DNA of 10,224 bases from Candidatus Falkowbacteria bacterium CG1_02_41_21 (GTDB lineage: Bacteria > Patescibacteriota > Patescibacteriia > Patescibacteriales > UBA12465): positions 1 to 10,224 of the forward strand of contig MNUV01000021.1 in NCBI GenBank assembly GCA_001871235.1. The letters are read 5' to 3'. Of this stretch, positions 2,159 to 10,069 are shown piece by piece (position 1 is the first letter of the stretch; every line of letters begins with the position of its first letter). Both the position numbers and the translations under genes were made by a program. A model generated the notes under the pieces. That model was not told the DNA's origin and did not search any database. It saw only the letters and a list, made by a program, of their open reading frames with translations.

Positions 2159-2539
2159 ATGGCGATAAATACTTCACCTAAGAAAGTTTTAATTGCGGAT
2201 GATGAAAAAGCTATTGCTAAGGCTTTGGCTTTAAAGTTAACTAAGGCCGGTTTTGCTACCGAAGTGGCGGTTAATGGCGTTGAGGCCATTGATAAAATTA
2301 AGGCCACCAAGTTTGATTTAATTGTTTTAGACTTGATTATGCCGGAGAAAGACGGTTTTGCGGTTTTAGAATATATGCGGACCAAGAAAATCAATTATCC
2401 GGTTTTAGTCGCTTCCAATTTAAGCCAAGAGGAGGATTTAAAACGGGCTAAAGATTTGGGGGCGATTGATTATTTCATTAAATCTAATTTATCCCTGCAA
2501 GAGATAATTGATCATATTAAAAAAATATTAAAAGTATGA
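2159..2539 (+). CDS. Single-domain (CheY-like) response regulator
   Basis: This is a 126-residue receiver domain with no output domain. Key residues are in place: acidic pair D14-D15 (LIADDE), phosphoacceptor D58 in IVLDLIMP, S86 in VLVASN as the switch Ser/Thr, and K108 in FIKSN. A receiver alone acts by protein contact, as CheY does, or as a phosphotransfer intermediate. It is the first gene of the pilus operon, and its stop overlaps the PilB start (ATGA, 2536-2539), so the two are probably translationally coupled. This suggests control of pilus assembly at the ATPase, rather than transcription. The likely partner kinase is the PAS histidine kinase at 8777-10069, at the far end of the cluster. 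Partner and target are inference; the fold and phosphorylation site are clear. No Shine-Dalgarno precedes the start. Confidence 0.92.
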   Translation: MAINTSPKKVLIADDEKAIAKALALKLTKAGFATEVAVNGVEAIDKIKATKFDLIVLDLIMPEKDGFAVLEYMRTKKINYPVLVASNLSQEEDLKRAKDLGAIDYFIKSNLSLQEIIDHIKKILKV

Positions 2540-4188
2540 CCTTAAAATTAGGCGATGAAATTTTACAAGCTATTTTAGTCCAGGAAAGTTATGTGTCCGC
2601 CGAGGACATGAATAAGGCCGTTGATTTTGCCCAAAAGAATAATGCCACCGCTTTAGATTATCTCTTCACTCAAAATATTTTAACTAGTGACCTTTTAGGC
2701 CAGGCTTTAGCGGAACATTACAAGATCCCTTATTTTGATTTAAATATCCATGAGTTAAGTGCCGTCCACGTCTTGAAACTGCCGGAAGAATTGGCGCTTA
2801 AATATAATCTGTTATTTTTAATGGAAAGCCAGGACCAGATTCTTCTGGCCACTGACGATCCGACTCAGCCGGAAATGGCAGAAGTCTTGAAACAGACTTT
2901 TCCGGATAAGAAAATTCTCTTCGTTTTTTCTTTGACGGACGATATCAAAAGCAAATTCGTTTTTTATCGCAAGACCCTGGAAACTCGTTTTGCTTCTATT
3001 TTACAAGAGAAAAAAAGAGTCGCGCCGGAATTGGTGGAAGAGATTATCAAGGATGCTATTTTTTATCGAGCCTCGGACATTCATTTTGAACCGACGGCCG
3101 TGGAAGTTCTGATTCGTTTTCGAATTGACGGCGTTCTCCAAGATGCCGGTCGCGTGACCACGGAGTATTATGATAATATTTTAAATTTAATTAAGGTTTT
3201 GGCTCATATCAGAACCGATGAGCATTTGTCCGCCCAAGATGGCGCTATTCGTTATGGCACCGAGGGAACCCCCACTATTGATTTGCGGGTTTCTATCGTC
3301 CCGACCGTTAATGGTGAAAAAGTGGTTATTCGTTTATTGTCTCAATATATCAGCAATTTATCTTTTGCTGATTTAGGTTTGTCTTATAATGACCATAAAT
3401 TATTGGAGTATAATATGCTGCGACAATTCGGTATGATTCTGGTCACCGGCCCAACCGGATCAGGTAAGACCACTACTCTTTATGCAGTCATGAAAGCGGT
3501 TAAGAACCCGGGTGTTAATATTACGACCATTGAAGATCCGGTGGAATATAAAATTGGGGGAATCAATCAAATTCAAGTTAACGAGCAAACTAATTTAACT
3601 TTTGCCAAAGGTTTGCGCTCTATTTTGCGCCAAGACCCCAATATTATTTTAGTGGGAGAGATTCGCGACAAAGAAACTTCGGAAATCGCCGTTAACGCGG
3701 CCCTGACCGGTCATTTATTATTATCTACTTTTCATTCCAATGATGCTTCTTCGGCCATTCCTCGTTTGCTGGATATGGGGGCGGAGCCATTCTTATTATC
3801 TTCCACTTTAAAATTAATTTTAGCGCAACGTCTAGTTCGCCGTATTTGTGAAAATTGTCGTTATAGCGTGGAATTCACCAAGATGGCTCTCGATAAAAAA
3901 TATCCTTATTTAAAAACTTATTTTCCGGAGAATAGTTATACTTTTTATGAGGGTAAGGGCTGCCAGTCTTGCAACTATACCGGTTTTAAGGGGCGCATCG
4001 CCGTTTATGAATTAATTAGTATTTCTCCCGCCATCCAAGATTTGATTGTGGCTAAAGCGCCGGCTCAAGATATTTGGAAAATGGCGGAAAAACAGGGGTC
4101 GCGTTCTTTATTTGTGGATGGCCTGGAAAAAGTTCGAACCGGAGTTACCACTTTAGATGAACTGCTCAGGATTGCTCGACCGTTTTAA
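2536..4188 (+). CDS. pilB: PilB/GspE-type pilus assembly ATPase
   Basis: This cytoplasmic hexameric ATPase drives pilin insertion through PilC. Length (550 residues) is typical for PilB. Residues about 1-140 form the N-terminal MshEN/T2SSE_N-type region (alpha-helical repeats, then a mixed alpha/beta part), which marks an assembly ATPase, not the shorter retraction ATPase PilT. The C-terminal core has Walker A GPTGSGKT (305-312), the Asp box TTIEDPVEY (330-338), Walker B LRQDPNIILVGEIRD (364-378) and the His box LSTFHSNDA (396-404). A tetracysteine zinc site is complete: C438-x-x-C441 and C476-x-x-C479, as in GspE and PilB. The start codon overlaps the response regulator stop by four bases, and the PilC gene follows after a 15-base gap. 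No PilT-like second ATPase is present in the window, so retraction, if any, must come from elsewhere or from PilB. Function is certain at family level. Confidence 0.96.
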   Translation: MTLKLGDEILQAILVQESYVSAEDMNKAVDFAQKNNATALDYLFTQNILTSDLLGQALAEHYKIPYFDLNIHELSAVHVLKLPEELALKYNLLFLMESQDQILLATDDPTQPEMAEVLKQTFPDKKILFVFSLTDDIKSKFVFYRKTLETRFASILQEKKRVAPELVEEIIKDAIFYRASDIHFEPTAVEVLIRFRIDGVLQDAGRVTTEYYDNILNLIKVLAHIRTDEHLSAQDGAIRYGTEGTPTIDLRVSIVPTVNGEKVVIRLLSQYISNLSFADLGLSYNDHKLLEYNMLRQFGMILVTGPTGSGKTTTLYAVMKAVKNPGVNITTIEDPVEYKIGGINQIQVNEQTNLTFAKGLRSILRQDPNIILVGEIRDKETSEIAVNAALTGHLLLSTFHSNDASSAIPRLLDMGAEPFLLSSTLKLILAQRLVRRICENCRYSVEFTKMALDKKYPYLKTYFPENSYTFYEGKGCQSCNYTGFKGRIAVYELISISPAIQDLIVAKAPAQDIWKMAEKQGSRSLFVDGLEKVRTGVTTLDELLRIARPF

Positions 4189-4203: not shown

Positions 4204-5322
4204 ATGATTGAAAATCTTAAAATCACCATTCCGCCCAAACCGATAAGTAAAAGAAGTTTGTTTAATTTTGGTTATAGTAAAGAAGAAGATTATTTTTTTG
4301 AGAACCTTTCGATTTTGTTGAGTTCCGGCATGCCGGTGTCGGAAGCGGTGGCGGCTTTAAATCGAGAAGTGCGCACTCCTAAAATGATCGGTCGAATTGA
4401 GACGCTAGCCAAAGAAATTAATGATGGCTCTTCGCTTTATATCGCCCTGGAAAGAAGCAAATTACTGCCGAAACATTTCGGCGATTTGATCCGAGTGGGC
4501 GAGAGCTCCGGTTTATTGGTGGATAATTTTAATATTATTGTCGGCCAAAGACAGAAAGAGCGCGTCTTTAGTTCTCAAATCAAAGTGGCCATGGCTTATC
4601 CGGTAACCGTTTTGGTGGTGGCTTTATTAATCGGCGTGGCGATTACCTGGTTCTTATTGCCGGGTTTATCGGGAATTTTTTCTTCCATGCAAATTGAGCT
4701 GCCCTGGATTACTCGCACCATGATTGCTTTCGGCAAATTTATAGCTCACTCCGGCTATTGGGCCTTGCCCTTCTTTGTTTTATTTATTTTTGCTCTTTGC
4801 TATTTGGTTTTTGTTTATAAAAAAACTAAATATATCGGAGAATATATTATTTTACATTTACCGAAGATCAGAAAGATCATCCAGGATTTGGAGGTGGCTC
4901 GTTTTTCTTATTTATTGGGCAGTCTGCTGGGAGCTGGTTTGCCAATTGACGCCACTATCGGCTTTTTAGCGAGCTCTGCCAATATTTTAGCTTATAAGAA
5001 TTTCTATAATTATGCCAAGACTAAAGTGTCTGACGGCGAATCTTTCGCTCGAATTTTTGCTTCTTACCGCGGGATAGACAGATTAATTCCGCCTCCGATT
5101 CAACAAACTATCATTAGCGCGGAAAATTCCGGTCGTTTGTCTGAAGCCAGTCTCCATATTTCTAAAATTTTTGAAGCTCGCATGGAACTTAATTACAAAC
5201 TTTTAACCACCATGTTGGAGCCGATTCTGCTGGTTATCGTTTGGCTGGGAGTGCTGGGTATCGCTCTGGCGATTGTTTTGCCAATTTACAGTTTAATCGG
5301 TGGTATAAGCCAGCAGATTTAA
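4204..5322 (+). CDS. pilC: PilC/GspF-type inner-membrane platform protein
   Basis: This is the membrane platform on which PilB acts. At 372 residues it is slightly short of a typical 400-residue PilC. It holds two copies of the T2SSF domain. The first (about 30-150) contains LLSSGMPVSEAV and GESSG (99-103). The second (about 232-355) contains LLGAGLPID and SAENSGRLSEA (305-315). Three hydrophobic segments are visible, at about 131-153, 183-205 and 338-362, matching the family topology. The N-terminal extension ahead of the first domain is only about 25 residues. ATG 4204 lies 15 bases after the pilB stop, with no Shine-Dalgarno. The first minor pilin starts 8 bases after its stop, so it is part of the same operon. 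Confidence 0.95.
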   Translation: MIENLKITIPPKPISKRSLFNFGYSKEEDYFFENLSILLSSGMPVSEAVAALNREVRTPKMIGRIETLAKEINDGSSLYIALERSKLLPKHFGDLIRVGESSGLLVDNFNIIVGQRQKERVFSSQIKVAMAYPVTVLVVALLIGVAITWFLLPGLSGIFSSMQIELPWITRTMIAFGKFIAHSGYWALPFFVLFIFALCYLVFVYKKTKYIGEYIILHLPKIRKIIQDLEVARFSYLLGSLLGAGLPIDATIGFLASSANILAYKNFYNYAKTKVSDGESFARIFASYRGIDRLIPPPIQQTIISAENSGRLSEASLHISKIFEARMELNYKLLTTMLEPILLVIVWLGVLGIALAIVLPIYSLIGGISQQI

Positions 5323-5330
5323 TTGATTTT

Positions 5331-5765
5331 ATGAAACCAAGAGCTTTTACCTTGATAGAAATGTTATTATCAGTTTCGGTCATGGCTATTTTGACGGGGA
5401 TAATGGTGCCGATTTTTTTGTCTTTTCAAACTCGAAACGATGTTGATATCGCTTCTTTGGCTCTGGTTCGAAGCATTCGTCGAGCGGAACAATTATCTCG
5501 AAATGGGGAAGGTGATTCCGCTTGGGGCGTTAATTTATTAAGCGGTGAAATTGCCGTGTTTAAAGGCTCAACTTATACTGGTCGCGATGCCGCTTATGAT
5601 GAAATTTTTTCAATTCCGAATAATATTAGTTTTACCGGAACTTCATCAATGGCTTTTAGCCAGCTTTATGGCTGGCCGTCGGCCAGTAGCACCATAAATT
5701 TAACTTCGGTTAATAATGAAACACGCACTATCAATATTAATTCTAAGGGCTCGGTCAATTACTAG
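5331..5765 (+). CDS. Type IV prepilin-like protein, GspH/FimU-like minor pilin
   Basis: This is a 144-residue class III signal protein. The leader is only MKPRA; cleavage by prepilin peptidase is expected after A5, leaving F6 as the methylated N-terminus. The motif FTLIEMLL carries the conserved Glu at mature position 5 (E10). The hydrophobic helix runs to about residue 31 and is followed by an amphipathic stretch with LVRSIRRAEQLSRNGEGDSAWGVNL. That last pattern, helix then 'A.. G..WGV', is typical of GspH/FimU-type minor pilins, a first-in-cluster position it also occupies here. ATG 5331 is chosen because the open frame extends upstream into pilC but only this start gives a proper short leader. 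Its 3' end overlaps the next gene's apparent start by 50 bases. No cysteines are present. The precise minor pilin class is an inference from position and motif. Confidence 0.85.
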   Translation: MKPRAFTLIEMLLSVSVMAILTGIMVPIFLSFQTRNDVDIASLALVRSIRRAEQLSRNGEGDSAWGVNLLSGEIAVFKGSTYTGRDAAYDEIFSIPNNISFTGTSSMAFSQLYGWPSASSTINLTSVNNETRTININSKGSVNY

Positions 5766-7230
5766 AAAAAAGTTAGCCGCTTTTTCTATGATTGAAGCCC
5801 TTCTCGCCGGATCTTTATTGGCCTTGGTCGTTTTTATTTTATCCGGAATTTTAATTTTCGGTCAAGAAAGTTCTCGGATAGCCGGTGACAGTCAGAGAGC
5901 CACGGCTTTAGCCGAGGAAGGGTTAGAGGCCGTGCGCAGTATGAGTGAAGCCTCTTTTTCCAGTTTAACAGCCGGACCTCATGGCCTGGCGGTGTCTGGC
6001 GGTAAATGGCAATTTCTCGGAACTCAAGATTACCCGGAAATTTTTACGCGCAGTTTAATTATATCCGATCTTGATGCGAACACCAAAGCGGTTACTTCCA
6101 CTGTCAGTTGGGCGGCCAGCTCTCAAAGAAACGGTTCAATATCCCTCACCAGTCGTTTTACCAATTGGCGGCGGATAGGTTCTCCCGTTATGGGTAATTG
6201 GGCCAGTACTACTGTTGCGGCCGGTTATAATGCGACTCTCAATGGTCGGGTGGTCAGAGTCAGTGGTAATTATGCCTATGTCGGCTTGGTTTCTGGCGCC
6301 AATAATTTTAAGGTGTTTGATATTTCCAGTCCGGCTACTCCCAGTTTGGTGGGGCAGACCACGGTGGCCGGTAATATTAATGATATGGAAGTGTCCGGAA
6401 ATTATGTTTATGTGGCTTCAACTGACAACACCAATGAAATGAGAATTGTCGACGTTACCACCAAGACGGCGCCGACTCTACGAGGTTCTTATCAGGCCGC
6501 CGGTTACGGCGATGGTTTATCCGTGGATGTTATTGGGACTACGGTTTATTTGGGAAGAGCTCCGAGTGCCATCCTCGGCCAAAATGAATTTTATATTATT
6601 GATGCCGCCAGTTCTACGGCCCCAGCGCTTTTAGGTTCTCTTAATTTGATCGATTCAGTCTTTGATATTCAAGTTTCTTTCGACTCCTACGCTTACTTGG
6701 CTACGAGTGGCAATACATCCGAACTCAACATTCTTAATGTTTCCAACCCCGCCGTCATTTCTTCGGTTGGCACTTTTAATATTGTCGGCTCTAACACTGG
6801 TCGAAATGCTTGGTCCGTTGCTATTTTTGATTCTAATACTGATGGCATAGAAGATCGGGCGATTGTGGCTCGGACCGCTGAGGGTCGTCTTTGGCCTTTT
6901 AATGTCTCTAATCCGGCCAGTCCATCCTTAATAATTTCTCCCAATGGTTATACCGTTCCCGGTATTGGCGCGGCTAATATTACTTATTTAGAATTATTTA
7001 ATAGTAACAAGTACTTGGCTCTAGCTACCAATGCAGCTACTGCCGAGGTGGTGATTGTGGATATTACTACCTTGGCCTCCCCGACCGTTTTAAGTACGAC
7101 CAATATTGCCGGTGCCAGTAATTTTGCCGCCGAAGGGCTGGCTTATGCCGCCGGAGTTGATCGCTTATTAACGGTTGGAACTCGGATTGCAACTAATAAT
7201 TATTCTTTAGTTATTATCAAACCAAATTAA
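5716..7230 (+). CDS. PilV/GspI-position minor prepilin fused to an LVIVD-type beta-propeller (probable pilus-tip adhesin)
   Basis: This 504-residue protein is over three times the length of its pilin neighbours. Residues 1-22 form a basic leader ending RKKLAA. Cleavage after A22 gives FSMIEALLAG with Glu at +5 (E27), a class III prepilin signal, and the hydrophobic helix runs to about 49. A pilin-like segment follows to about 160, including 'ATALAEEGLEAVRSM' (62-76), a PilV/GspI-type pattern. From about 175 to 504 there are about seven repeats of 40-50 residues. Each holds a 'YVYVA/YLAT' strand, a 'xxIxDVS/VDITTxAxPxxxG' strand-turn, and a following 'xxVxG' turn: the LVIVD beta-propeller signature. 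One blade carries D372-x-N-x-D-G-x-x-D380, a calcium-type loop. The only ATG ahead of the leader is 5716, overlapping the previous gene by 50 bases; a rare ATT start at 5758 would give a shorter leader. The propeller is in unbroken frame with the pilin part. Role at the tip is inference. Confidence 0.88.
   Translation: MKHALSILILRARSITRKKLAAFSMIEALLAGSLLALVVFILSGILIFGQESSRIAGDSQRATALAEEGLEAVRSMSEASFSSLTAGPHGLAVSGGKWQFLGTQDYPEIFTRSLIISDLDANTKAVTSTVSWAASSQRNGSISLTSRFTNWRRIGSPVMGNWASTTVAAGYNATLNGRVVRVSGNYAYVGLVSGANNFKVFDISSPATPSLVGQTTVAGNINDMEVSGNYVYVASTDNTNEMRIVDVTTKTAPTLRGSYQAAGYGDGLSVDVIGTTVYLGRAPSAILGQNEFYIIDAASSTAPALLGSLNLIDSVFDIQVSFDSYAYLATSGNTSELNILNVSNPAVISSVGTFNIVGSNTGRNAWSVAIFDSNTDGIEDRAIVARTAEGRLWPFNVSNPASPSLIISPNGYTVPGIGAANITYLELFNSNKYLALATNAATAEVVIVDITTLASPTVLSTTNIAGASNFAAEGLAYAAGVDRLLTVGTRIATNNYSLVIIKPN
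6829..6855 (+). other. Calcium-type loop DxNxDGxxD coded within the propeller
   Basis: Nine codons give D372-S-N374-T-D376-G377-I-E-D380. Spacing of the acidic and Asn side chains (1, 3, 5, 9) matches EF-hand-like calcium loops, which are found in bacterial beta-propellers including PilY1. Binding itself is inferred. Confidence 0.55.
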
Positions 7231-7233
7231 GAT

Positions 7234-7734
7234 ATGCGTAGATCAGCCTTCACTTTAATAGAATTAACACTTTATATCACTTTGGCGGTGGTAGTTCTTT
7301 TTGGTTCCTCAACGATGATGTCTTTAATCTTTGAAGCTCGAACCAAGGATATGGTAGTGAATGAAGTGGAGCAACAAGGCGATGCGGTTTTGCAAATTAT
7401 CACTCAAAGTATCAGAAATGCGACAGCCGTTAATTCTCCGACGCCGGAAACCAGCGCCGATACCTTGGTGCTTGATACTTTGGTTGGAGCTAATAACCCA
7501 ACCATTTTTAATTTAGTGAGTGGAACTATTTTTATGAAGGAGGGTGCGGCCGAGAGTGTCGCTTTGACCAATTCTCGGGTGGCCGCGGCGACTCTTAATT
7601 TCCAAAATTTAGCCCCAATCGGCACCAACGATGATTTGCGCGTTTCTTTTACGGTTACTTACAATAGCAGCTCCACTCGCCAAGTTTATCAATATGGCCG
7701 GAATTTCTATGGCTCCGGAGCTTTGCGGCAATAA
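7234..7734 (+). CDS. Type IV prepilin-like protein, GspJ/PilW-like minor pilin
   Basis: This 166-residue prepilin has leader MRRSA, cleavage after A5, and mature start FTLIELTLYI with Glu at +5 (E10). The hydrophobic helix runs to about residue 32. A polar helix follows, with DMVVNEVEQQGDAVLQIITQSIRNA, the 'E.EQQG..vl..It..IRnA' pattern seen in PilW/GspJ-type minor pilins. The remainder is predicted beta-rich (LVLDTL, TIFNLVSGTIFMKEG, DLRVSFTVTYNS). Its start is 3 bases after the stop of the propeller pilin, and the next gene begins 2 bases after its own stop, so the genes are surely co-transcribed. No Shine-Dalgarno motif is visible. It has no cysteines. The class assignment rests on motif and gene order, with good but not complete certainty. 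Confidence 0.85.
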   Translation: MRRSAFTLIELTLYITLAVVVLFGSSTMMSLIFEARTKDMVVNEVEQQGDAVLQIITQSIRNATAVNSPTPETSADTLVLDTLVGANNPTIFNLVSGTIFMKEGAAESVALTNSRVAAATLNFQNLAPIGTNDDLRVSFTVTYNSSSTRQVYQYGRNFYGSGALRQ

Positions 7735-7736
7735 TT

Positions 7737-8135
7737 ATGACAGGCAACATCAATCGACAACCAGCTTTTGTATCTGTAATCAGCGTCTTAATTCTAGGCG
7801 TGGTCGGTTTAAGCATTTCAATTTATATTATTTTATTTTCTTTGGCTTCTTCCAAAAATAGTTTGTCGTTGTCCCAATCAACGCAGGCCCGGACTTTGGC
7901 TACGGCTGGCGCCGAGAGCGCTTTGGAACAAATCAGAGAAGACCCGGCTTATACCGGCACTACCGATTTAACTTTGAGCGAGGGCCTTTGTTCTTACATG
8001 GTGGCTGATACGGGCGGAGAAACCAGAACGATTAGCGTGACGGCCACCGTGGCGGCCGTGGTTCGCCATTTGTCTTTAACCGTGACCGCCATTAATCCCG
8101 TGATAACCATTGGTTTTTGGCAGGAAGTGCCTTAA
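7737..8135 (+). CDS. PilX/GspK-like minor pilin lacking the conserved Glu5
   Basis: This 132-residue protein begins MTGNINRQPA, then a 26-residue hydrophobic helix starting FVSVISVLILGVVGL. If cleavage falls after A10, mature position 5 is Ile, so the Glu present in the other four pilins is missing. That absence, the RQ-x-A/G-F opening, and the motif 'QARTLATAGAESALEQIREDPAYTG' are typical of PilX/GspK-type minor pilins, thought to sit at the very tip where Glu5 is not needed. It follows the PilW-like gene by 2 bases and closes the minor pilin run. The C-terminal half looks beta-rich (TRTISVTATVAAVVRHLSLTVTAI). There is only one Cys (C85), so no internal disulfide. It is small for GspK (usually above 300 residues), closer to PilX size. 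Confidence 0.78.
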   Translation: MTGNINRQPAFVSVISVLILGVVGLSISIYIILFSLASSKNSLSLSQSTQARTLATAGAESALEQIREDPAYTGTTDLTLSEGLCSYMVADTGGETRTISVTATVAAVVRHLSLTVTAINPVITIGFWQEVP

Positions 8136-8251: not shown

Positions 8252-8695
8252 ATGAAAAACAAAAAAGCATTTACATTATTAGAAATCTTATTGGTCGCGG
8301 CGGCGATTGCCATTTTAGCCGGTATCGTTATTTTGGCTATCAATCCCAGCAAGCAATTAGCTGATACTAGAAATTCTCAACGTCGGATTGATGTCAACAC
8401 CATCTTAAATGCCGTTTATCAATATGCTATTGATAATAATGGTAATTTACCGGCAACCATTGCCGCTACTACCACTTATGGCATTTGCCGGACCAATCCT
8501 ACGGCCACCACTACTTGCACCGATTTGTCCGTCTTGACTACTGATGAAAAATACTTAGTGTCCATGCCGATTGATCCTTTGGGCGCGGTTAATACCGATG
8601 ATATTAATTATCGGGTGATAAAGACCGTCAATAATCGCGTTACTGTTTGGGCTAATGCTCCGGAACAGGGCGTCACTATTTCCGTCACTCGTTAA
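8252..8695 (+). CDS. pilA: Major type IV pilin
   Basis: This 147-residue prepilin has leader MKNKKA, cleavage after A6, and mature start FTLLEILLVAAAIAILAGIV with Glu at +5 (E11). The stretch after the helix has the residues DTRNSQRRIDVNTILNA (38-54) and then a YQYAIDNNGNLP segment (57-68). This is the standard pattern of Patescibacteria pilins and resembles other short PilA and PulG-type sequences. Two cysteines (C79, C89) could close a small disulfide loop. The C-terminal part, with YLVSMPIDPLG followed by YRV and VTVWA strands, looks like the usual pilin beta sheet. It has its own promoter and a leader with a stem-loop. Calling it the major pilin rests on the separate promoter, the family pattern and position outside the minor-pilin run; direct proof is lacking. 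Confidence 0.88.
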   Translation: MKNKKAFTLLEILLVAAAIAILAGIVILAINPSKQLADTRNSQRRIDVNTILNAVYQYAIDNNGNLPATIAATTTYGICRTNPTATTTCTDLSVLTTDEKYLVSMPIDPLGAVNTDDINYRVIKTVNNRVTVWANAPEQGVTISVTR

Positions 8696-8711
8696 TAAAT
8701 GCGCCATAGAA

Positions 8712-8746
8712 TTTGCTTGATTTTTATAGCTATAAAATCAAGCAAA
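8712..8746 (+). other. Long perfect hairpin between the major pilin gene and the kinase gene
   Basis: TTTGCTTGATTTT (8712-8724) is the exact reverse complement of AAAATCAAGCAAA (8734-8746). The 9-base centre TATAGCTAT can itself fold further. It lies 17 bases after the pilA stop. No T tract follows (the next bases are CTTGATTACGG), so it is not a textbook intrinsic terminator. It could protect the 3' end of the pilin mRNA or reduce read-through into the kinase gene. Confidence 0.7.
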
Positions 8747-8776
8747 CTTGATTACGGATTTATTCCTATCCTTTTT

Positions 8777-10069
8777 ATGCTTTTTCGAAAAAAAATTATT
8801 ATTTTTGTTGGGCTGGTTTTGGGCGGCTTTTTGATTTTATTGTATTCTTCTTTTATCTTTAGAATTGAAACCGACCAAGTCATTTATCAATATGACGTTA
8901 ATATTTTACTTTACATTTCAATTTCACTATTTATTGTGGTCTTAATTCTGGTCGGTCGCTTAATGAAAGCGTTTGCTAAGGCGCAGCAATCTTTGCAGGA
9001 TTTACAGAAATTCAAATTGGCGGTGGATAATGCTTCGGACTGCATTTCCATTACCGACAAAGATGGCATTATCCTTTATGTCAATGGTGGCATGGAAAAA
9101 ATCACCGGGTTTAAGCCGGAAGAAGTTTTAGGGAAAAAGATCGGTTCTAAAGATTTGTGGGGGGGGGATATGTCTTTGGAATTTTATCAAAAATTATGGA
9201 CCGCAATTAAAACCAAAAAACAGAAGTTTTCCGTTGAATTTAACAATCATCGTCAGAATGGCGAAGAATTTGTGGCGGCGGTCAGTATTTCACCGATTTT
9301 GGATGAAGCTGGCGAAGTAAAGTTTTTTGTTTCCATTGATCGGGATATTACTGTCGTCAAAAGGATTGATCTGGCCAAAACTGAATTCGTTTCTTTGGCT
9401 TCCCATCAACTTCGGACGCCGCTGACTTTCGTCAAATGGTATTCTGAAATGCTCTTAAACGATGATGTCGGGCCGCTGGGTAAAGATCAGAGAGATTTTA
9501 CCCAAGAGATTTATAACAGTAATGAGAGGATGATTGACTTGGTAGATTCTCTTCTGGATGTTTCCCGTTTGGATTTGGGGACTTTGAAGATTAAGGGTGC
9601 GCCGACTGATATTTTGAAAGCAATTAAAGATTTAATCAAGGATGTCGGTCCTTTAATGATCAAGAAAAAGGTTAAATTAATTGAGAAATATGATCGGCCA
9701 CTACCAATTATAGAGCTGGATAAAAGGTTGTTTTTTGTAATTATCCAAAATCTATTAACTAACGCCATTAAATACAGTAAAATGGGGGGTGAAATTATCC
9801 TGGAAATTAAATGTGACGGAGCTGCTAACGTTTTAATTAAAGTGGCGGATAAAGGTTGCGGTATTCCGATTAAAGATCAGGCTAGAATTTTTGATAAGTT
9901 ATTCAGAGCCGATAATGCTCGTAAAATAGAACCGGATGGCAACGGCCTGGGTCTGTATATTGTCAATTCTGTCGTCAAACAATGCCAGGGGAAATTTTGG
10001 TTTGAATCCAAAGAGAATGCGGGCTCTACTTTTTACATTTCTTTGCCGATTAAATTACCTAAGAAATAA
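8777..10069 (+). CDS. Membrane-bound PAS-domain sensor histidine kinase
   Basis: This 430-residue protein is a two-component sensor. Two membrane segments lie at about 6-28 and 44-62, with a short 15-residue loop between, so it has almost no external sensor domain. A PAS domain follows (about 78-195; AVDNASDCISITDKDGIILYVN near its start, then 'RDIT' at its end). HisKA has SLASHQLRTPLT with phosphoacceptor H210. The ATPase part shows N box NLLTNAIKYS (N329), G1 DKGCGIP (358-364) and G2 GNGLGLYIV (388-396). A run of nine G (9159-9167) codes W-G-G in the PAS domain. ATG 8777 is preferred over the in-frame ATG 8699, which sits 3 bases after pilA and would force translation through the 13-bp hairpin, adding 26 residues before the first membrane segment. 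No DNA-binding partner is adjacent, and the receiver at 2159 is the likely target. tpiA begins 5 bases downstream. Confidence 0.9.
   Translation: MLFRKKIIIFVGLVLGGFLILLYSSFIFRIETDQVIYQYDVNILLYISISLFIVVLILVGRLMKAFAKAQQSLQDLQKFKLAVDNASDCISITDKDGIILYVNGGMEKITGFKPEEVLGKKIGSKDLWGGDMSLEFYQKLWTAIKTKKQKFSVEFNNHRQNGEEFVAAVSISPILDEAGEVKFFVSIDRDITVVKRIDLAKTEFVSLASHQLRTPLTFVKWYSEMLLNDDVGPLGKDQRDFTQEIYNSNERMIDLVDSLLDVSRLDLGTLKIKGAPTDILKAIKDLIKDVGPLMIKKKVKLIEKYDRPLPIIELDKRLFFVIIQNLLTNAIKYSKMGGEIILEIKCDGAANVLIKVADKGCGIPIKDQARIFDKLFRADNARKIEPDGNGLGLYIVNSVVKQCQGKFWFESKENAGSTFYISLPIKLPKK

Follow-up and report, generated by a model that had tools for sequence, protein, structure and literature searches.

A GspI/PilV-type minor pilin fused to a predicted seven-bladed LVIVD propeller in a Falkowbacteria pilus operon

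By what means ultra-small episymbionts select their partner cells is an open question, for which pili are a leading candidate. The window, a 10,224-base stretch of DNA that is the entire contig C47 (GenBank MNUV01000021.1) of Candidatus Falkowbacteria bacterium CG1_02_41_21, encodes in a single open reading frame (ORF) a minor pilin of the type IV pilus and a beta-propeller. The genome comprises 635,779 bases in 61 contigs, is 85.6% complete, and belongs to a tiny bacterium that is probably host-attached. What would a pilin of this kind do? The fusion protein is most likely a tip-displayed binding module, perhaps influenced by calcium, and the PilV subunit that carries it looks like a socket where these bacteria exchange the part that contacts the outside. 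A preliminary description, made from the letters of the sequence, had already proposed a one-piece minor pilin and propeller at the PilV position (GspI being the counterpart of PilV), and the operon order, the Pfam family PF08309 and an AlphaFold2 model bear this out. The gene and its parts are as follows.

5716 to 7230, plus strand: fusion of a PilV/GspI-type minor pilin with an LVIVD beta-propeller, 504 residues (ORF, Pfam, homologues, AlphaFold2, fold comparison)
5716 to 5781, plus strand: prepilin leader, residues 1-22, predicted cleavage A22^F23 (sequence)
5782 to 5952, plus strand: pilin alpha-1 helix, residues 23-79, glutamate at +5 (E27) (alignment, AlphaFold2)
5953 to 6168, plus strand: pilin globular head, residues 80-151, TNW box at its end (alignment, fold comparison)
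6169 to 6207, plus strand: linker, residues 152-164 (predicted local distance difference test, pLDDT, below 50 at 155-157; the modules of relatives diverge past it)
6208 to 7227, plus strand: closed seven-bladed LVIVD propeller, residues 165-504 (PF08309, AlphaFold2; strand 165-171 closes blade 7)
6829 to 6855, plus strand: DSNTDGIED, residues 372-380, a match to the calcium-loop motif Dx[DN]xDGxxD, set as an insert between strands A and B in blade 5

The ORF opens with an ATG inside the end of the FimU-like gene, an overlap of 50 bases of a kind that recurs in relatives, and has no stop inside. The N-terminus reads MKHALSILILRARSITRKKLAA^FSMIEALLAG..., that is, a leader, a glutamate at +5 and a hydrophobic helix; there is no second in-frame ATG, GTG or TTG between 5716 and the cleavage site. 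The prepilin signal and helix of the preliminary description were thus recovered as a class III signal (A^FSMIE), the hydrophobic alpha-1 being evident in both the sequence and the model, where it spans residues 25-79. The pilin beta-sheet follows up to residue 149, and confidence is low at 155-157. The glutamate is present in 110 of the 114 rows of an alignment of homologues (A1), the remaining four having a gap in that column. Three residues of the pilin head, G87, R112 and W151, the last within the TNW box, are present in every row. The fold of the isolated pilin domain resembles the solved GspI/XcpV/EpsI structures. The Pfam model N_methyl gave no score on the fusion protein and is precomputed in a minority of the homologues; the prepilin assignment is made because of the motif, the fold and the homologues. 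The curated PilV (TIGR02523) and GspI (TIGR01707) models gave no match at E 1, and the NCBIfam matches to ComGE (E 0.015) and XpsI (E 0.14) are weak and under their cut-offs. One source names the homologue P0037 as PilV. When the whole protein was compared by sequence with solved structures, no meaningful relative was found (best E 0.35).

The propeller part scored 72.6 bits against LVIVD (PF08309; E 1.6e-20, cut-off 20.2), well over the cut-off and therefore not by chance. The structure prediction that the preliminary description had called for gives a closed propeller, whose strands we counted as seven blades with closure by strand 165-171 (mean pLDDT 91.7). Its two faces are named top and bottom by convention. 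Residues of the top loops vary more than those of the bottom loops (2.10 versus 1.57 bits, p ~1e-5, or 6e-5 without gappy columns), a comparison to be read with the bottom turns belonging to the LVIVD repeat motif itself. The same repeat family occurs in LVIVD-repeat proteins at large (PF08309) and in the NCBIfam 'choice-of-anchor B' proteins (TIGR04312), and against the latter model the fusion protein scored 48.6 bits with a cut-off of 100; unlike other LVIVD-repeat proteins, the propeller in the window is anchored by a pilin helix.

A frameshift or a mis-join of a pilin gene with a separate propeller gene would produce the same reading frame, and one relative, G002, does carry the two on different contigs. 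In that genome each part reaches a contig end, as at an assembly break, whereas the same fusion is present in P0002 (86% identity, on a 40-kb contig) and in the G001 copy (64% identity). The GC content at third codon positions is near-equal in the pilin (0.41) and propeller (0.40) parts. With independent assemblies carrying the fusion, we rejected the artefact, to which we give practically no credence; the preliminary description had named it as grounds for refutation. Its claim about the structure is correct, and can be put more strongly than it was.

The fusion also occurs beyond this genome. Of 7996 candidates scored, at least 456 are homologues at E 0.001 or better, and among the 120 matches listed 119 have a precomputed PF08309. 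Alignment A1 joins 113 of these 120 with the window's protein; P0001, which is that same protein, was excluded, as were six others of atypical length or coverage (P0024, P0061, P0077, P0088, P0105 and P0113). Each row fills 90% or more of the propeller columns. The nearest named homologues are Candidatus Falkowbacteria, members of the Patescibacteria (P0007; L188, 62% identity). A contig scan with a single motif found 68 loci, all patescibacterial where the title names a group, 10 being titled just 'bacterium'. The search for the fused architecture in Patescibacteria, suggested at the outset, shows that it is not special to this genome: the fusion protein matches something in 73 of 192 relatives, many of the matches spanning the pilin or the propeller part only. 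Among the LVIVD members mean identity is higher for the pilin parts (residues 23-150) than for the propellers (0.510 versus 0.395 over 6441 pairs).

What surrounds the gene is conserved, and what it carries is not. The pilin genes of the window are ordered FimU-like, PilV, PilW-like, PilX-like and major-pilin-like, with PilB and PilC upstream; of the loci of 89 relatives, 84 have PilC no more than four ORFs upstream and 79 have PilB. Closed PilV ORFs encode 135 to 1547 residues with a median of 490 (n = 84; 5-95%, 173-1346). The neighbours were picked by their position and a mechanically called start, without regard to family, and the extremes of their lengths therefore include miscalls: the next ORF has a median of 174 residues (114-409; n = 80; 5-95%, 164-236), the second next 143 (122-497; n = 78; 5-95%, 127-281), and the preceding one, when not PilB or PilC, 151 (n = 80; 5-95%, 141-189; largest 713). 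The contents of the slot were surveyed with a pilin-only profile (A2), made from 26 of 31 candidate pilin stretches (L053, L060, L064, L076 and L077 left out). It matched 345 of 380 class genomes at a threshold that also admits other pilins. From the best 85 rows, a set that favors close relatives of the window's pilin domain, 83 were classified (L152 and L164 have no called PilV ORF), with labels assigned by a profile of the A1 propellers and by BLAST clusters. The slot held an LVIVD propeller in 34, a shared small module in 8, a Cys-rich module in 5, a 441-residue type in 4, no module in 5, and in 27 something other, a mixture in which L146 and L148 match LVIVD in part. Of the ORFs truncated at contig ends, L125 and L130 are counted as LVIVD, and L133 and L149 as other; L050, in the set of 89 only, was called LVIVD from a propeller that begins another contig of that genome. 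Pfam on 13 of the other slot proteins gave mostly N_methyl at best, the exceptions being fn3 domains, which sometimes follow the small module (L065), YCF48-type repeats in L144 of the other class, and a weak DUF2510 in L137.

Two of these modules deserve separate record. A related Cys-rich module of about 55-63 residues is C-terminal in five PilV proteins (L015:1322-1918, L109, L110, L112 and L115), of which the L110 protein has N_methyl as its sole Pfam match. A module of 441-447 residues is common to L059, L063, L123, L138 and L143, with no Pfam match at E 0.01 for L063.

On a PilC tree of 83 of the 89 loci, built quickly and without a mixture model, the six module labels change at least 23 times, compared to a mean of 40.9 and a minimum of 35 in 200 shufflings and to 5 for perfect clustering. 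On the pilin-domain tree (89 rows) the labels change 26 times, versus a shuffled mean of 43.7. The changes are fewer than in shuffled labels and more than in perfect clustering, and thus the modules are partly inherited and often exchanged. The PilC proteins of L057 and L110, for example, are 73% identical, yet one locus has an LVIVD propeller and the other a Cys-rich tail. This variety bears on the proposal that the propeller is an assembly part, which would pack on the minor pilins, cap the tip complex and prime assembly in a calcium-dependent manner, like the PilY1 propeller, with no contact to a ligand. A slot that holds unrelated modules, or none, does not fit a fixed docking role.

The calcium loop, which the preliminary description had missed, is the feature that speaks for such an assembly role, as DSNTDGIED, flanked by strands 365-371 and 381-386, fits the PilY1-type motif as far as sequence can tell. 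This motif is reported at the tips of propeller blades in PilY1, integrin and others, as 'calcium blades' (PMC3123361). The blade-5 insert is found in nine of the 114 rows, namely the window and its eight closest homologues, and is missing from the other 105. We accordingly rejected the loop as a family-wide trait, and its rarity among LVIVD rows adds to the case against the assembly role, which we regard as unlikely. Five of the nine inserts fit Dx[DN]xDGxxD strictly, in three the Gly is replaced by S or N, and in one (P0004) N takes the place of a ligand Asp; a more permissive pattern picks up P0019 too, but within its pilin part. The PilY1 consensus is Dx[DN]xDGxxD, and one PilY1 of M. xanthus has DxDxDNxxD (PMC8833165), so that N at the Gly is tolerated in PilY1. 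Because the LVIVD and PilY1 propeller families differ, we read the blade-5 loop as apparently acquired independently of PilY1, a shared origin of the single blade being also possible.

We consider it probable that the gene encodes a modular I-class (GspI/PilV) minor pilin, whose propeller would be a ligand-binding effector at the tip, with calcium stabilizing or gating it. After prepilin cleavage, the pilin part would join the FimU-PilV-PilW-PilX tip complex of the type IV pilus. The covalently attached propeller would be held beyond the filament on its short linker as a binding effector, its variable top face most likely touching the surface of a partner cell or of the environment, and calcium in the blade-5 loop may stabilize or gate it. 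We infer tip location, ligand binding, calcium binding and a host cell as the target alike. This account is supported by the closed propeller and the pilin fold of the model, the lack of PF05567 matches described below, the conserved operon, the variation of PilV in length and module, the variable top loops, and the greater divergence of the propellers than of the pilin parts. More tentatively, and with somewhat less than even confidence, we suggest that PilV/GspI is a dedicated socket for exchangeable effectors past the TNW boundary, that the module helps set the partner cell, and that the calcium-loop solution was reached independently.

From 2159 on, all genes of the window lie on one strand. 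Those around the fusion gene are the following.

2159 to 2539, plus strand: stand-alone response-regulator receiver, immediately 5' of pilB (PF00072, E 1.3e-22)
2536 to 4188, plus strand: PilB assembly ATPase (T2SSE, E 3.2e-115; MshEN; TIGR02538 is the best NCBIfam match, under its cut-off)
4204 to 5322, plus strand: PilC platform protein (T2SSF, E 5.5e-39)
5331 to 5765, plus strand: FimU/GspH-position minor pilin (N_methyl, E 2.1e-5)
7234 to 7734, plus strand: PilW/GspJ-position minor pilin (position; N_methyl, E 0.033, under cut-off)
7737 to 8135, plus strand: PilX/GspK-position minor pilin, helix start without Glu5 (position, sequence; weak ComGG match)
8252 to 8695, plus strand: major-pilin-like prepilin (N_methyl, E 2.7e-5)
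8699 to 10069, plus strand: histidine kinase with a PAS domain, 3' of the pilin genes (PAS, HisKA, HATPase_c)

The regulators at both ends invite another explanation, in which the propeller is a surface sensor that registers contact, with a signal passed on to the receiver and kinase encoded nearby. Among 26 loci examined, a receiver stands immediately 5' of the PilB gene in 17 and a related kinase no more than seven ORFs downstream in 10, both being present in the window. We nevertheless deem a sensor improbable: no link leads from the pilus tip to this kinase, the kinase is nearby in under half of the loci, and the receiver may control the ATPase instead. An equally improbable role, in our estimation, is that of a pilus for DNA uptake or nutrient capture, with the propeller binding DNA or a polymer in place of a partner cell. 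The pilins of the window do have weak Com-type matches, and the FimU-like protein weakly matches several pilin models including ComGD and GspH, all far under their equivalog cut-offs. Moreover, the patescibacterium TM7x (Nanosynbacter lyticus) is naturally transformable without a contribution from its second pilus (PMC12206443), which leaves other pili as candidates. No DNA-binding feature was identified in the window's protein, no search having been aimed at one, and modules that are swapped suit a range of targets better than a single invariant one like DNA.

TM7x also furnishes a close precedent for a binding effector. It has two pili, and its minor pilin PilX2 has a C-terminal seven-bladed propeller and lowers host binding when deleted (PMC12206443). 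PilX2 differs in its PilX name, its RCC1 repeats and its reported lack of a predicted PilD signal, whereas the window's protein has the PilV/GspI position, LVIVD repeats, the Glu5 motif and the calcium-loop motif; RCC1 gave no match to it in the Pfam scan. In Streptococcus sanguinis the modular pilins PilB, with a vWA module, and PilC, with a lectin module, bind host proteins and glycans and are presented by a plain I-class PilA (PMC8179133, PMC9934059). The modules are different ones, and in the window the GspI-like subunit carries the module itself. The PilY1/PilC proteins of diderm type IVa pili likewise have a propeller with a Dx[DN]xDGxxD loop and are tied to the tip minor pilins; they are non-pilins with a type I signal peptide, a separate N-terminal domain and a propeller of another family (PF05567). 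The fusion protein, by its sequence and model, has a prepilin leader followed by a pilin moiety in place of such a signal peptide and domain.

Does the propeller then replace PilY1, as the preliminary description suggested it may? The absence of a pilY1-like gene that it noted extends well past the window. PF05567 gave no match to the fusion protein (Pfam scan at E 1), in its own, 85.6% complete genome, in any of 192 relatives or in any of 379 phylum genomes (two overlapping samples, each containing the own genome). The model did match an Aeromonas caviae record (1.2e-10) as positive control; 14 standard controls were silent, and of three records bearing type IV pili this was the only one to match, the others being two small plasmids. 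At the sensitivity of this search the absence is real, but it is expected. PilC/PilY1 is described as absent in monoderms, where modular pilins are the tip effectors of S. sanguinis (PMC9934059), and therefore no PilY1 need ever have been lost. A replacement is doubtful as history, and the functional claim becomes a plausible instance of a published principle.

Indeed, modular pilins, the absence of PilY1 in monoderms and a propeller minor pilin for normal host binding (PilX2 of TM7x) are already published; Raynaud et al. (PMC8179133) describe 264 modular-pilin architectures, with Falkowbacteria among the examples. The LVIVD form, the PilV position of this protein, the calcium loop and the slot-wise exchange were not found in print within our searches, which cover few subscription journals and found no literature naming both 'LVIVD' and 'pilin'; an LVIVD pilin may be listed among the more than 1,200 modular pilins of Dataset S1 of PMC8179133, which lies outside them.

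The remainder of the genome is rich in comparable proteins. A second minor-pilin cassette on contig C48 (L041:5528-8129, minus strand) has FimU-, PilV-, PilW- and PilX-position genes. Its PilV is plain (175 residues; TIGR02523 22.8 bits, cut-off 52.2), and its PilX-position protein of 336 residues ends in an Lcl_C domain (PF07603, E 5.7e-9). Four more prepilins have extra domains (L042:6337-7743, L043:5827-7167, L044:9844-10977 and L045:306-1463), three of them Fib_succ_major and one Flg_new_2, so that, with the window's PilV, six or more pilin-like proteins bearing an added module are encoded in 0.64 Mb. The genome also has a second pair of genes resembling pilB and pilC, and genes for a PilT-like ATPase and a PilM-like protein, the names PilM and PilT being our presumed reading of the sequences. 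The PilT-like gene and the second pair, together with the parallels to PilX2 and to the S. sanguinis pilins, support the ligand-binding account.

Two further observations were made in passing in this genome (G000). One ORF of 1008 residues has two T2SSE ATPase domains in tandem (G000:C26:869-3361; L248:857-3883, minus strand). Contig C41 of G000 (L252) holds a likely diversity-generating retroelement, with a reverse transcriptase at 9662-10714 (minus strand; RVT_1, E 1.1e-29) beside two repeats (11057-11195 and 11552-11690) of 139 bases each that are 88% identical. In 12 of their 17 mismatches the presumed template has an adenine on the coding strand, and the presumed variable copy is at the end of an ORF (11554-11979, minus strand) cut by the contig end.

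For the Patescibacteria as a whole, a conserved operon with one slot that exchanges its modules provides concrete candidates for recognition proteins. The prediction that follows is that an I-class minor pilin, and not PilY1, presents the tip effector. The calcium loop may be an independent case of the calcium-blade solution of PilY1 and the integrins.
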